64,000 bases of DNA from Inmirania thermothiophila (lineage in GTDB: Bacteria > Pseudomonadota > Gammaproteobacteria > DSM-100275). The notes under the pieces are model-generated. The model was not told the origin of the DNA. It searched no databases and worked only from the letters and a program-made list of their open reading frames with translations. Where the stretch lies: NCBI RefSeq assembly GCF_003751635.1, contig NZ_RJVI01000002.1:979986-1043985 (forward strand), given 5' to 3'. Made by a program: the position numbers and the translations under genes. Shown here one piece after another: positions 58,370 through 64,000 of the stretch (the first letter of the stretch is position 1; each line of letters starts with the position of its first letter).

Positions 58370-59191
58370 TCAAGCCGCGGCCTCCTCCTCGGCGAGGGCC
58401 TCGCGGACCCGATCCCGGAAGGCGTCGACGAAGACCGCCCCGAGCCCCGCGAACACCCCCGCCACCACCGCCAGCACGGCGATCGCCGCCCTGCCCCGGC
58501 CCTTGGGCTCGAGCCCCCGCTGGGCCAGCACCTCGATCCGGGCCGGCCGCACCTGGTCCGCCACCAGCTCCTCGAGCCGCCCGAGGTCCGGCTCGGCCTT
58601 GGCAAACGCCTGCTCACCCTGCCGCGCGATCACCTCGCGGAGGCGCACCAGCGCGTCCCGTCGGACAGCCCTCGCCGCCTCCACGAGATCCTGCTGCGCC
58701 ACGACCACCCTCCGGGCCACCGTCTCGTGGAGCCGACGCACCAGCCCGGCCTCCGCCTCGGGCACCACGCTTTCCAGCACGATGAGGTCCGTGTCCTTGG
58801 GCCGCTCCGCCTCCACGAGCCCCTCGCCCACATCGCCGCGCCCCTGCGCCGACCCCGCCAGCACCGCCGGCAGGTAGACGCGACGCACCTGCTCCAGGAC
58901 CTCCGACGGCGATACCAGGGGGCGGGTCCCTTCCGGGCTCACCACGCCCGCAAGCTGGATCACCGTGGTGTAGCTGTAGCGCTCCGGAAGGAGCACCGCC
59001 GCTGCAAGCCCCGCCACGAGCACCACGGCGAAAACGGCCCAGAAGACGCGGCGGCGCCGGCGAAACTCCAGCCACAGGTCCACCAGGCTGAGCTCGTCCT
59101 CGGGCGGATACCACGCCGGCGCCCACACCTGCGGCAGCTCGCCCTCGCGACGCCCCTGCCCGTCCTTCGTCTGCCCGACCGTCTCCTTCAC
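58370..59191 (-). CDS. Wzz-like polysaccharide chain-length/co-polymerase protein
   Basis: A 273-residue inner-membrane protein with the Wzz layout: a cytoplasmic N-terminus (VDLWLEFRRRRR just before the membrane), TM1 at about 50-69, a periplasmic helical coiled coil, and TM2 at about 235-255 followed by a short acidic tail. No Tyr-kinase domain is fused. The GTG at 59191 follows GGAGGGGAG. Wzz proteins set the chain length of O-antigen or exopolysaccharide. It follows cysC on the same strand by 91 nt; no glycosyltransferase lies in the window. Confidence 0.82.
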   Translation of the reverse strand: MKETVGQTKDGQGRREGELPQVWAPAWYPPEDELSLVDLWLEFRRRRRVFWAVFAVVLVAGLAAAVLLPERYSYTTVIQLAGVVSPEGTRPLVSPSEVLEQVRRVYLPAVLAGSAQGRGDVGEGLVEAERPKDTDLIVLESVVPEAEAGLVRRLHETVARRVVVAQQDLVEAARAVRRDALVRLREVIARQGEQAFAKAEPDLGRLEELVADQVRPARIEVLAQRGLEPKGRGRAAIAVLAVVAGVFAGLGAVFVDAFRDRVREALAEEEAAA

Positions 59192-59282
59192 TTGCTTCTC
59201 CCCTCCGTGTCGCGTCCCCGCGCCGCCCATCGAGGCCGGTACACACCCGGAGGGCGGGCTCCCTCGTCCGCCGCGGCGCGCC

Positions 59283-59924
59283 TCAGGGCAGCGAGAGGCG
59301 CTCGCCCGCCGGGGCGATGAGGCCGCGCCCGCGCAGGTAGGCGAGCAGCTCCTCCACGCACTCCTCCACCGTGCGCTCGGCCGTGTCCACCACGATCTCC
59401 GGATCCTCCGGCTCCTCGTAGGGCGAGGAGATCCCCGTGAACTCCGGAATCTCACCCGCACGCGCACGCCGGTACAGCCCCTTCACGTCCCGCCGCTCGC
59501 ACACCTCCAGCGGACAGCGGACGTAGATCTCGATGAAATCCTCCCCCACCAGCTCGCGCACCCGCGCCCGGTCCCGCCGAAACGGCGAGATGAACGCCGT
59601 CAGCGTGATCACCCCCGCCTCGATGAAAAGCTTCGCCATCTCCCCGATGCGCCGGATGTTCTCGTGCCGGTCCTCGGGCGAAAAGCCCAGATCCGCGCAC
59701 AGCCCGTGGCGCACGTTGTCGCCGTCGAGGACGAAGGTGCGGCACCCCTCCTGGTGCAGCGCCTCCTCCAGGGCATGGGCCAGGGTCGACTTGCCGGCCC
59801 CCGACAGCCCCGTGAACCACAGCAGCATGGCACGGTGCCCGTTGAGGGCCTCCCGCCTCGCCCGCGTCACGGTGGCGCGGTGCCAGACGACGTTGCGCGC
59901 CTTCCAGTTCTCGTCCGTGGCCAC
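59283..59924 (-). CDS. cysC: Adenylylsulfate (APS) kinase
   Basis: Phosphorylates APS to PAPS; 213 residues. The P-loop GLSGAGKST is at 39-47, DGDNVRHGL at 67-75, and the phosphorylation-site equivalent FISPFRRDR holds Ser113; [20 protein letters not shown] is the usual APS-binding stretch. The start is GTG at 59924. It stands without cysD, cysN or cysH, so it is not in a plain assimilation operon. Beside a Wzz-like gene, PAPS for a sulfated surface polymer is possible, but that is inference. Confidence 0.95.
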
Positions 59925-59963: not shown

Positions 59964-61208
59964 CTACTCCATCTTCATGCGGGTGACGCCGCCGAAGGTG
60001 CCGATCCAGTAGAACCCGTCCTCGCCGTCCGCCATGGAGAAGACGTTGCTGGTGACCAGCCCGTCACGCTGGGTGATGGCGGGCGTGAAGCGCCCGTCCT
60101 CGTAGCGGGTCAGGCCGTTGTTGGTCCCCACCCAGAGACGTCCCCTGCGGTCCACGTGCAGCATGAAGATGTGGTTGCCGGGCAGGCCCTCGTCCATGGT
60201 GAAGTTGGTCCACTGCCCGTCCTTGAGGCGCGCCAGCCCCCCGCCCCAGGTGCCGCACCAGACTGCGCCGTCCGGCGTCACCACCATGGAGATGACGTAG
60301 TTGGGGTTGTAGGCCCCGCTCACGCGCGTCAGCCCCTGCTCCTGCTTCTGGCGGGCGTGGTGGGCCGAGACCTGCGCCGGATCGGTCTGGAACGGGTTCT
60401 GCTCCTTGACCTTCTCGTAGGGCGCGCCGAGGCCGTCGTCGTGGGTCCAGTGCTGCCAGGCGCCGTCCTTGAAGCGCGCAAGCCCCCCCTCGGTGGCGAG
60501 CCAGATGCTGCCGTCGGGCCCCTCGTCGAGGCCGTAGACCCAGTCGTTGGGGAGCCCGCCCTGGGTGTTCTTGACGGTGAAGGTGTCCCACGCCGCGCGA
60601 TCGTCGAGGCGCCCGCCCCGCACGCGGTTGGCGCCGGACCAGGTGGCGATCCAGATGTCGCCGTTGGAGGCCTCCAGAACGTCGTAGACGAAGGCGTCGG
60701 CGAGCCCGTGCTGGATGTTGTAGTTGTCCCAGCTCCCGGTCTCGGCGTCGTAGAGGAGGGAGAGGCCCCCGCCGTAGGTCCCCACCGCGAGCCGCCCCTG
60801 GAGCTTGCCGAGGTAGAAGATGCCGTTGGAGAGGAGCCCCGAGCGGACGTCGAAGAAGCGGGTGTCCTCGGTCCTCGGGTCGTAGCGCACGACACCGCCG
60901 GAGGTGCCGACCCAGACGACGCCGTCGTCCACGAGGAGGGCCTTGACGTTGCGGTTGCCGGTGCGGAAGCGGGTGAAGCGCCCGTTGTCCGCGGGCAGCT
61001 CGACCCCGGCGCGGGCGTGCGCGGCGGCCGCGGACTCCGGAGCGGGGGCCGGCGGGACCGCGGCCGGCGCCGGCGCAGGCTGGGGCGCCGGCGCGGTCGC
61101 CTGCGGGGCGGGCCCGCCGCCCTGCTCGGCCCCCATGCGGTAGGCCACCACGCCCACCCCCAGGGCCACCACCACGAGAAGGAACAGCGTCCTGGCATCC
61201 AGCTTCAT
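59964..61208 (-). CDS. Exported seven-bladed beta-propeller protein B
   Basis: A 414-residue protein: an uncleaved or cleaved N-terminal hydrophobic segment (LFLLVVVALGVGVVAY), a Pro/Ala-rich linker to about residue 65, and seven repeats of about 42 residues of the two-component-regulator propeller type, each near GxIWxGTxGGxxRxDGxxW. An insertion after blade 4 contains WTHDDGLGAP and YNPNYV, exactly as in protein A. No kinase or output domain follows. Its ATG shares one base with the protein A stop (TGATG). Such propellers are the sensor half of hybrid histidine kinases; here they are free-standing in the periplasm. Confidence 0.82.
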   Translation of the reverse strand: MKLDARTLFLLVVVALGVGVVAYRMGAEQGGGPAPQATAPAPQPAPAPAAVPPAPAPESAAAAHARAGVELPADNGRFTRFRTGNRNVKALLVDDGVVWVGTSGGVVRYDPRTEDTRFFDVRSGLLSNGIFYLGKLQGRLAVGTYGGGLSLLYDAETGSWDNYNIQHGLADAFVYDVLEASNGDIWIATWSGANRVRGGRLDDRAAWDTFTVKNTQGGLPNDWVYGLDEGPDGSIWLATEGGLARFKDGAWQHWTHDDGLGAPYEKVKEQNPFQTDPAQVSAHHARQKQEQGLTRVSGAYNPNYVISMVVTPDGAVWCGTWGGGLARLKDGQWTNFTMDEGLPGNHIFMLHVDRRGRLWVGTNNGLTRYEDGRFTPAITQRDGLVTSNVFSMADGEDGFYWIGTFGGVTRMKME

Positions 61209-62449
61209 CACCTGCCCTCCGAGGCCTCGTCCCGCACCAGCCGCGTCACACCGCCCCGGGTCCCGGCCCAGATGCTGCCGTCCGGGGTCGCCACCACTGC
61301 ATAGACGTCCCGCCCGGTGAGGCCGTGATGCGGATTGAACGACTCCCAGTCGCGCCCGTCGAAGCGGCTCAGCCCCGCGTCGGTGCCGAACCAGAGGGCG
61401 CCGTCCGGCGCCTGTGCCACGGCATAGACGATGTTGCCCGCGAGCCCGTCCTTGCGCGTGTAGTTGGTCCAGCGCCGGCCGTCGAACCGGCTCACGCCCC
61501 CGCCCCAGGTGCCGGCCCAGATGGTGTCGTCCCGCGCCGCGATGATGGAGAAGACGTAGTTCGGGTTGTACGTCGGTCCCGTGCCCGAGAGCACGCCCAG
61601 GTTGTGCCGCTGGCGCGTGCCGAGGCCGGTGTTGGTGCTCGGCGGCAGGCCGGCCTCGTTGGGGGCGCCGAGACCGTCGTCGTGGGTCCACTCGTACCAG
61701 GCGCGGCCGTCGTACATGGAGACGCCGCCCTCGGTGCCGAACCAGACCCGGTCCTTGGAGTCCACGGCGATGCCGTAGACCCACTCGTTGACGAGCTCCT
61801 TCACGTAGGTGGTGAGCCGGCCCGTGCGCGGGTCGTAGCGGTTCACCCCAGCCCAGGTGCCGATCCAGATGTCCCCGGAGCGCTGCTGGGCGAAGGAGTA
61901 GACCCAGTAGTCGGCCAGCCCGTGCATGGGGAAGAAGACCTTCCACTGCCCGTCACGGTAGCGCGAGACGCCGCCGGCATTAGTCCCGAACCACTTGTTG
62001 CCGTCGCGGTCGACGGCGATGGCGAAGACGTACTCGTTGGCGAGCCCGTCCTTGCGGGTGAAGGTGTTGCGCACGCGGTAGTCGTCGAGACCCACCTCCA
62101 GCACGCCCGCGGAGGTGCCCACCCAGAGGGCGTCGGCGCCCGGGTCGTAGGCGAGGGCGCGGACGTAGACCCCGGGACCGACCTCGAAGCGGTCGGCGAC
62201 GCGATAGCGCCGGCGCGCCTCGGCACCGTCCCCGCCCGCCGCCCCGGCCTGCGCCTTCGGGGCCGGAGCGGGCGGAGGCTGCGGCGGCGCCGCCTCCGGG
62301 GCCTGCGGCGGCGCGGCCGGTGCGGGCGTCACCGCGGCCTGCGGCACATCCGGCCGCGCCCCGGCACGGTCCCTCGCCTCGTCGGCGCGGTCGCAGGCGG
62401 TCAGGGCCGCGGCCAGCGCCGCGACGGCGATCCATTGCCTCGTGCTCAT
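61208..62449 (-). CDS. Seven-bladed beta-propeller lipoprotein A
   Basis: A 413-residue lipoprotein: signal AVAALAALTAC-type lipobox (LTAC, Cys19), a long Pro/Ala linker to about residue 80, then seven propeller repeats such as YVFAIAVDRDGNKWFGTNAG and GGVSRYRDGQW. Blade 4 carries an insertion with WTHDDGLGAP at its start and YNPNYV at its end. It aligns blade for blade with protein B, so the pair arose by duplication. The ATG overlaps the cytochrome stop by ATGA (62446-62449). Ligand unknown; no output domain. Confidence 0.82.
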   Translation of the reverse strand: MSTRQWIAVAALAAALTACDRADEARDRAGARPDVPQAAVTPAPAAPPQAPEAAPPQPPPAPAPKAQAGAAGGDGAEARRRYRVADRFEVGPGVYVRALAYDPGADALWVGTSAGVLEVGLDDYRVRNTFTRKDGLANEYVFAIAVDRDGNKWFGTNAGGVSRYRDGQWKVFFPMHGLADYWVYSFAQQRSGDIWIGTWAGVNRYDPRTGRLTTYVKELVNEWVYGIAVDSKDRVWFGTEGGVSMYDGRAWYEWTHDDGLGAPNEAGLPPSTNTGLGTRQRHNLGVLSGTGPTYNPNYVFSIIAARDDTIWAGTWGGGVSRFDGRRWTNYTRKDGLAGNIVYAVAQAPDGALWFGTDAGLSRFDGRDWESFNPHHGLTGRDVYAVVATPDGSIWAGTRGGVTRLVRDEASEGR

Positions 62450-62754
62450 TGCGTGAAGGTCCTCAGGTAGGCGATGACGTCCAGGATCTCGGCCTCGGAG
62501 AGGATCCCGAAGAAGGCCGGGCCGGCCCCGGTCCCGTCGCGGATGGCCGAGAGCAGCCGGCGGTCCGTGCGCATCAGCGTCTCCGGGCGCGTGAAATCCG
62601 GCACCCCGGGCATGACGCCGCGCCCGTCGGCACCATGACAGGTGACGCAGTGGGTCTCGTAGAGACGGCGCCCGTTGGCGGGATCGGCCGCCTGCGCCCC
62701 CGCGGCCCAGATGGCAACGGCGAGCACCCCCGCCGGCGCGAGCATCCTGGTCAT
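62446..62754 (-). CDS. Small monoheme cytochrome c lacking the usual Met ligand
   Basis: A 102-residue class I cytochrome c with a signal peptide (MLAPAGVLAVAIWAAGAQA), heme-attachment Cys36-Val-Thr-Cys39-His40, and the C-terminal LSEAEILDVIAYLRTF helix. The segment that normally reads G-x-MPAF reads GAGPAFFG here, so the expected axial Met near residue 78 is Gly. Met48 and Met61 are elsewhere and would need an unusual fold to bind. The ATG overlaps the Sel1 gene stop and its stop overlaps propeller A; GAGGAG precedes it. Confidence 0.85.
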   Translation of the reverse strand: MTRMLAPAGVLAVAIWAAGAQAADPANGRRLYETHCVTCHGADGRGVMPGVPDFTRPETLMRTDRRLLSAIRDGTGAGPAFFGILSEAEILDVIAYLRTFTQ

Positions 62755-63413
62755 CCCCGCTCCTCTTTCCGTCCGCCCCCCTGCTCCCGCTCCTCGCGCC
62801 GGCGCCGCTCCAGCGCCTGCGCCCGCTCCGTCCACCGGGCGGAGAGGGTCGGATCGGGGGGAAGCACGTCCCCAATGCCGCTGCGGTACACCTCGGCGAG
62901 CTCGCGCATCGCCGGCAGGTAGTCCTGGGCCGCGGCGAGCTCCAGCCACTCGAGCCCGGTGCGTACGTCCCGCTCCACGCCGAGCCCGCCCCGCAGGTAG
63001 GCCTGCCCCATCACCACCATCGCCGGCAGGTGCCCGCGGTCCACCGCGGCCAGGACCCAGCGGCGGGCGGTGGCGAAGTCGCGCTCGACCCCCTCGCCGC
63101 TGGCATACATCAGGCCGAGCCGCATCATGCCCTCGGCGTCACCCAGCTCGGCGGCGCGGCGGTAGAGGGCCACCGCACGCTCGTTCTCCTCGGCCTTGTC
63201 CATGATGTAGCCGAGGAAGAGCAGGGCGGGGACGTAGTCGGCGGCCGCGGCCTGCTCGAGCTTCGCCATCGCGGTGACGAGATCCTCGCGGTTGTAGGCG
63301 CTGACCCCGTCGCGGTAGTCCTGGGCGGGGTCGCCCCAGGCGCTGGCCGCCGCCAGCACGAGGGCCGCGCACCCGTGACGAAGAAGCCGCCGCCGTGCCA
63401 CGCCTCCCCTCAT
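62751..63413 (-). CDS. Exported Sel1/TPR-like repeat protein
   Basis: A 220-residue protein: signal peptide (RRRLLRHGCAALVLAAASAWG), then Sel1-like repeats of about 36 residues: AMAKLEQAAAADYVPALLFLG, AVALYRRAAELGDAEGMMRLG, ARRWVLAAVDRGHLPAMVVMG and GLEWLELAAAQDYLPAMRELA. The C-terminus is charged (RRREEREQGGGRKEERG). The ATG at 63413 is preferred: GAGGAG lies upstream and it follows the regulator stop; an in-frame ATG at 63440 is possible. Sel1 proteins are scaffolds, and here it may assemble the propellers or cytochrome. Confidence 0.82.
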   Translation of the reverse strand: MRGGVARRRLLRHGCAALVLAAASAWGDPAQDYRDGVSAYNREDLVTAMAKLEQAAAADYVPALLFLGYIMDKAEENERAVALYRRAAELGDAEGMMRLGLMYASGEGVERDFATARRWVLAAVDRGHLPAMVVMGQAYLRGGLGVERDVRTGLEWLELAAAQDYLPAMRELAEVYRSGIGDVLPPDPTLSARWTERAQALERRRREEREQGGGRKEERG

Positions 63414-63429: not shown

Positions 63430-64000
63430 TCAGGACGCATACCCGGCGCGCTCGTATTCCTCGAGCTTGCGGTAGAGCGTGGAGAGGCCGATGCCGAGCC
63501 GCCGCGCGGCCTCCCTGCGGTCCCCCCCCGCCTCCTCGATCGCGCGTAGGATAACACCGGCCTCGAACTCCCGCACTTGCTCGCGCAAGGTCCTCGCGCC
63601 CTGGGCGCGCGGCGTGCTCGGCCGGGCGAACTGCGCCGGCAGGTCCGCCACCGTGATGACGCCGTCCTCGGCGAGGATGAGGGCACGCTGGATGACGTTC
63701 TCCAGCTCGCGCACGTTACCCGGCCAGTCGTGGGCCATGAGCATCGCCTCGGCCTCGGGATCCAGCCGCCAGGATTCGCCGTGGCCGTGCCTGCGCAGGA
63801 AGTGCTCCACCAGCCTAGGCACGTCCTCGCGGTGCTCGCGCAGCGGCGGCACCTGGATCTGGAAGACGTTGAGGCGGAAGTAGAGGTCCTCGCGGAAGGT
63901 CCCCTCGGCGACCATGGCCGCGAGATCGCGGTTGGTGGCGGCGATGATGCGCACGTCCACGGGCCGTGCCGTCTCGCTCCCCACGGGGCGGACCTTCTTC
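63430..64000 (-). CDS. Sigma-54-dependent transcriptional activator, C-terminal part (partial)
   Basis: The right window edge cuts this gene; about 190 C-terminal residues are visible. They contain the end of the AAA+ domain (VRIIAATNRDLAAMVAEG, FREDLYFRLNVFQIQVPPLR, DWPGNVRELENVIQRALIL) and a Fis-type helix-turn-helix (DRREAARRLGIGLSTLYRKLEEY). The GAFTGA loop and any receiver domain are outside. It begins the minus-strand run that contains the Sel1, cytochrome and propeller genes. It is a candidate activator for the sigma-54 promoter at 23036-23049, although that link is only inference. Confidence 0.9.
   Translation of the reverse strand, partial: KKVRPVGSETARPVDVRIIAATNRDLAAMVAEGTFREDLYFRLNVFQIQVPPLREHREDVPRLVEHFLRRHGHGESWRLDPEAEAMLMAHDWPGNVRELENVIQRALILAEDGVITVADLPAQFARPSTPRAQGARTLREQVREFEAGVILRAIEEAGGDRREAARRLGIGLSTLYRKLEEYERAGYAS

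Follow-up and report, generated by a model that had tools for sequence, protein, structure and literature searches.

A conserved pair of seven-bladed propeller proteins accompanies the Uet electron-uptake gene cluster of Inmirania thermothiophila and its relatives

Results

Genes and features of the locus

The analyzed window, a 64,000-nucleotide (nt) stretch of the Inmirania thermothiophila genome (contig NZ_RJVI01000002.1), contains two adjacent genes encoding exported propeller proteins, designated P1 and P2. Features of the locus are summarized in Table 1. Both proteins match the Reg_prop family (PF07494; P1, 88 bits, E 5e-26; P2, 84.4 bits, E 7e-25; curated cut-off 20.4), and they share 38% amino acid (aa) identity over 348 columns (E 3e-60). 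P1 carries a lipobox, while P2 has none and begins with a hydrophobic helix; both contain Pro/Ala-rich linkers. Neither a haem motif nor an output domain was found in P1 or P2. The initial annotation had described the lengths, export, lipidation of one protein, hydrophobic N-terminus of the other and the linkers in the same way, and its gene coordinates were exact.

Table 1. Coordinates of the features distinguished at the P1-P2 locus and of the putative promoter element before uetA
Feature	Coordinates	Strand	Basis
P1, 413-aa exported lipoprotein with a seven-bladed propeller	61208..62449	-	sequence, AlphaFold2, orthologues
Lipobox of P1, LTAC, with Cys19 as the lipidated residue and Asp at +2	62393..62404	-	sequence
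Seven-bladed propeller domain of P1 (residues 82-406), with the N-terminal strand as closure	61232..62206	-	AlphaFold2
Insertion of P1 between blades 4 and 5 (residues 255-293), with the invariant motif NTG-GT-R-RH	61571..61687	-	orthologues, AlphaFold2
P2, seven-bladed propeller with N-terminal membrane helix, 414 aa	59964..61208	-	sequence, AlphaFold2, orthologues
P2 N-terminal membrane helix, residues 5-28	61125..61196	-	AlphaFold2 model, orthologues
Seven-bladed propeller domain of P2 (residues 78-412)	59973..60977	-	AlphaFold2
Insertion of P2 between blades 4 and 5 (residues 255-300), with the invariant motif DP-S-HH-Q-E-G	60309..60446	-	orthologues, AlphaFold2
Monohaem class I cytochrome c, overlapping P1 by 4 nt	62446..62754	-	
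Exported Sel1-repeat protein	62751..63413	-	
NtrC-type sigma-54 response regulator, 3' part (450 aa; remainder beyond the window)	63430..64000	-	
cysC (adenylylsulfate kinase)	59283..59924	-	
Wzz-like gene	58370..59302	-	
Sigma-54 -24/-12 element before uetA	L108:16846-16861; likewise in L075, L119, L132, L161, L177, L179		

From the Sel1-repeat gene through to P2, the stop codon of each gene overlaps the start codon of the next: by 4 nt at the junction of the Sel1-repeat and cytochrome c genes, again by 4 nt between the cytochrome c gene and P1, and by 1 nt between P1 and P2. The cysC and Wzz-like genes lie 3' of P2 on the same strand.

The N-terminal export signals vary among orthologues. 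An automatic scan detected a lipobox in 35 of the 82 orthologues of P1, and inspection by eye added several; many others have ordinary or twin-arginine-like signal peptides, so P1 cannot be regarded as a universal lipoprotein. The membrane helix is present in most P2 orthologues. Twin-arginine-like signals were seen in P1 of loci L046, L052, L062, L072 and L074 and, in Leptothrix/Sphaerotilus, also in P2 (L052 and L074); relatives have a lipobox or a membrane helix at these places. These signals may possibly indicate export of the proteins in a folded state.

Propeller fold and conserved insertion

AlphaFold2 models of P1 and P2, built on 71-76 orthologues, reached pLDDT values of 86.4 and 89.1, respectively, with propeller cores mostly above 95. 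Each model has seven closed blades, in agreement with the seven repeats counted in the initial annotation and contrary to its alternative that the blades might not close as seven. Blade 7 is completed by an N-terminal strand (residues 82-89 of P1 and 78-87 of P2).

In both proteins an insertion separates the final strand of blade 4 from the first strand of blade 5, opened by WTHDDGLGAP and closed by YNPNYV, as had been noticed from the sequence. Its length is nearly constant (39 aa in 65 of 76 P1 orthologues and 46 aa in 65 of 71 P2 orthologues). The mean frequency of the most common residue is similar in insertion and core: 0.73 versus 0.72 in P1 and 0.71 versus 0.73 in P2. Near-invariant residues include R279, R281 and H282 of P1 and H283, H284, Q287 and E290 of P2. 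Because this surface loop is as well conserved as the propeller core, it probably has a function.

Among solved structures, the best matches to P1 and P2, in sequence as well as in fold, are Reg_prop propellers that form the periplasmic sensing part of hybrid two-component systems in Bacteroides and are also seven-bladed (BT4663, 4a2l; BT3049, 3v9f). The kinship to sensor propellers proposed in the initial annotation was thus borne out. However, the propellers of BT4663 and BT3049 are joined in one chain to a kinase, whereas P1 and P2 are encoded by separate genes, lack the kinase or response-regulator output that characterizes hybrid two-component sensors, and carry one conserved insertion each.

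Conservation and origin of the gene pair

A scan of public genomes yielded 350 relatives of P1 and P2, the best 80 of which were examined. The two genes are adjacent in 81 of 83 loci, and the two exceptions stop at contig ends. In all 78 readable neighbourhoods a six-frame profile search placed P2 directly after P1. These data give strong support to the coupled, stand-alone pair suggested in the initial annotation; close homologues occur as adjacent pairs and not as single genes lacking a conserved partner. Genomes G057 and G143 (loci L109 and L110) contain P2 only; in G143 the lone P2 gene lies directly 3' of ccmI, and the genome has no match to the undecaheme cytochrome UetJ.

In the phylogenetic tree all P1 proteins form one fully supported group and all P2 proteins another. 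The pair thus stems from a single old duplication that predates its spread. The distances of P1 and P2 correlate with a coefficient of 0.55 ("mirror-tree" analysis), a value not higher than those obtained with several other neighbours, and it therefore gives no argument for a heteromer. A P1-P2 heteromer would nevertheless be plausible. No natural P1-P2 fusions were seen, and the long open frames considered as candidates proved to be overlaps typical of high-GC sequences.

Gene neighbourhood in Inmirania thermothiophila

P1 and P2 form the end of a minus-strand gene run that opens with a Uet (undecaheme electron transfer) electron-uptake cluster. Beyond the window, on the same strand and leading away from the pair, there are genes encoding a histidine kinase, TlpA, further maturation-type proteins, CcsA, ResB and UetJ, an undecaheme cytochrome with 11 CXXCH motifs. 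Farther on, there are genes for two NHL or NHL-like proteins, four triheme-domain cytochromes, a 600-aa barrel candidate, a peptidyl-prolyl isomerase (PPIase) and a tetraheme cytochrome. The order along the run is uetA, PPIase, barrel candidate, trihemes, NHL, UetJ, ResB, CcsA, TlpA, kinase, NtrC, Sel1, cytochrome c, P1 and P2. Because the window ends inside the NtrC gene and UetJ lies outside it, the link to the undecaheme cytochrome was invisible to the initial annotation.

The Uet cluster was described in Ca. Tenderia electrophaga, and the gene set occurs in Tenderiales and some Gallionella (PMC10734462, PMC12575090). The tetraheme, PPIase, triheme, NHL and undecaheme genes of that cluster have counterparts upstream of the pair on the same strand in I. 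thermothiophila, where the 11 CXXCH and doubled-CXXCH motifs and matches to nanowire_3heme, PPIase and NHL were all found on one strand. At the position of UetC, where an outer-membrane porin is expected, there is an exported-looking protein (the barrel candidate) with no family match. The published accounts, as far as their text was available, list UetA-J only and no Reg_prop pair (PMC10734462, PMC12575090). The available descriptions of these electron-transfer clusters, searched for propellers, likewise do not mention the pair, and literature searches on regulator propellers in connection with cytochromes or extracellular electron transfer returned nothing relevant.

An operon of ANME partner bacteria encodes 16- and 26-haem cytochromes, a PPIase and a six-bladed propeller (PMC5539420). 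This operon resembles Uet in combining multihaem cytochrome, PPIase and propeller genes, but its six-bladed propeller is comparable to the NHL proteins of Uet and not to P1 and P2.

Association of the pair with Uet

To determine the distribution of the pair, we looked for P1, P2, UetJ and the Uet PPIase in the same 369 genomes of the class, with MtrA serving as control; presence of UetJ and the PPIase was called at a visible gap in the scores. The pair was found in 43 genomes and UetJ in 40, with both in 39 (four pair-only, one UetJ-only; phi 0.93). Values of phi were 0.92 for the pair and the Uet PPIase, 0.96 for UetJ and its own PPIase, and 0.28 for the pair and MtrA. The nominal p-values of about 1e-46 are not to be taken literally, since the counts include related genomes that are not independent, yet 19 families hold both the pair and UetJ. 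Outside the class, all eight pair-bearing genomes tested possess UetJ.

The pair and UetJ are on different contigs in 21 of the 39 genomes (draft assemblies). Where they share a contig, they lie within about 20 kb of each other in about half of the cases, so gene linkage contributes to the co-occurrence. One counter-example, G080 (L111), has undecaheme, NHL, triheme, ResB and CcsA genes and no propeller pair. Co-occurrence and gene order are strong evidence that P1 and P2 belong to Uet. Because the two proteins are nearly always together and almost confined to Uet carriers, they look like an overlooked Uet helper rather than a free-standing sensor.

Variable neighbours of the pair

Neighbour counts were made in 59 loci with enough upstream sequence. 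Cytochrome c maturation genes of two unrelated systems, Ccm and/or ResB-CcsA, precede the pair in 49 of these. An NtrC gene is present in 36 loci and missing from 23: ten have instead a downstream gene for a GGDEF-EAL protein with one CXXCH motif, and 13 have neither. The maturation system and the regulator are therefore exchangeable, as both vary by lineage while the pair stays.

Propeller pairs next to a cytochrome c gene recur in other genomes: a monohaem cytochrome c adjoins P1 in 68 of 80 loci (67 counted and one in which the locus cuts P1). It is absent from the remaining 12, so an obligatory partnership was rejected.

Several other genes accompany the pair in particular lineages. A soluble PAS hybrid kinase is encoded 3' of P2 in Sphaerotilaceae and others. 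Directly 3' of P2, some lineages have a gene for a Kelch-type propeller lipoprotein (L078:12544-13911, also L085 and L093), and gene runs of Sphaerotilaceae include ApbE, a flavin transferase (L036:15300-16334), and a Tll0287-like haem protein (L044:4868-5446).

A sigma-54 promoter element upstream of uetA

In I. thermothiophila the tetraheme gene uetA is preceded by a sigma-54 -24/-12 element at a distance of 47 nt, measured from the -12 GC. With uetA starts in relatives located by profile, such an element was found in all seven genomes with the pair-operon NtrC and in none of 33 genomes without it. The seven elements have 0-2 mismatches, and two are exact; across a whole 18-kb locus, two-mismatch sites are no more frequent than expected by chance, and they are informative only by their position before uetA. 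Because of this distribution (7/7 versus 0/33), the two-component system of the run very probably switches on uet.

Possible roles of P1 and P2

While their membership of Uet is strongly supported, the Uet step that P1 and P2 serve is what we infer here. We tentatively favour an accessory role in Uet for two propellers tethered to the membrane, most likely in the maturation or assembly of its cytochromes. P2 would be anchored in the inner membrane by its helix, with P1 lipid-anchored or free in the periplasm, and together they would form a platform whose conserved insertions are turned to a client, i.e. UetJ, the trihemes or the adjacent monohaem cytochrome. The client might be held while CcmFHI or ResB-CcsA attach haem and TlpA supplies thiol reductant, or, alternatively, while it is docked into the conduit. 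The kinase and NtrC would turn on the uet genes via the sigma-54 promoter as a separate, replaceable module. Several points speak against such an assembly role: the closest solved relatives are sensor domains and not chaperones, a signalling gene lies near roughly three quarters of the loci, P1 is missing from G057 and G143, UetJ from four genomes with the pair, and the pair from G080; nor do the distance correlations set P1 and P2 apart from other neighbours. A more specific form, in which P1 and P2 are a dedicated assembly factor for very haem-rich cytochromes, usable with either cytochrome c maturation system, is possible but doubtful.

Exported propellers without output domains can serve assembly in other systems, as do PorZ in type IX secretion and Ycf48, an assembly factor of photosystem II. 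Both are among the fold matches of P1 and P2. NirF, likewise an exported propeller-type protein without an output domain, acts in cytochrome cd1 maturation (PMC3694632). All three belong to families other than that of P1 and P2 (the PorZ model NF052228 scored 41.4 bits against a cut-off of 260), and any likeness is in the way of working only.

Rather unlikely is a split sensor, in which P1 and P2 would respond to a ligand or redox state of the periplasm and relay this in trans to the histidine kinase/NtrC encoded nearby, the GGDEF-EAL protein or the soluble PAS hybrid kinase, adjusting uet expression. It would fit the hybrid-kinase origin of the nearest solved relatives, the presence of one of these three kinds of signalling gene near 46 of 60 loci and the probable control of uet by the NtrC of this operon. 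However, the signalling partner comes from one of several unrelated families, or is lacking altogether (14 of 60 loci), while the pair stays, and P2 has a single helix and no output domain. No propeller-bearing kinase, nor any other Reg_prop protein, was found in the I. thermothiophila genome, and the kinase of the run, which brings a short periplasmic part of its own, lacks a propeller; the absence of kinase/NtrC from many pair carriers further weakens the idea that the propellers are its sensor. The initial annotation had proposed a periplasmic sensor or a receptor for a polymer; neither role is established, and the strongest association of the pair is with UetJ.

We consider it unlikely that P1 and P2 are structural or docking subunits of the mature electron route, holding the neighbouring monohaem cytochrome c in position to link the Uet conduit with the respiratory chain. 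Such a function would accord with the strict link to UetJ and with the frequent position of the cytochrome gene directly upstream, overlapping P1 in the window, but the 12 loci without this cytochrome before P1 and the lack of a haem motif in either propeller argue against it. Binding of an extracellular polymer or glycan, brought to mind by the nearest fold match, BT4663, a heparin/heparan sulphate sensor, and by the downstream cysC and Wzz-like genes, is highly improbable, as those genes were not seen to recur beside the pair in relatives, both proteins are predicted to be periplasmic and their association is with cytochromes.

Significance

If P1 and P2 are indeed a dedicated assembly factor for very haem-rich cytochromes, they would represent a new class of multihaem-cytochrome chaperone, absent from the Uet literature compared here in the text available, and a marker for Uet electron uptake. 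The finding bears on how cytochromes with at least 11 haems are built in bacteria and how they are connected to the inner membrane. A non-haem pair that tracks UetJ almost like a core Uet gene offers a new handle on this system and a marker for it, and the NtrC-type regulator with the sigma-54 promoter before uetA defines a testable regulon. Most knowledge of Uet comes from electrode- and iron-oxidising bacteria that are uncultured; the pair is also carried by the cultured Leptothrix discophora, Sphaerotilus mobilis and Ramlibacter lithotrophicus, which are possible hosts for its study.
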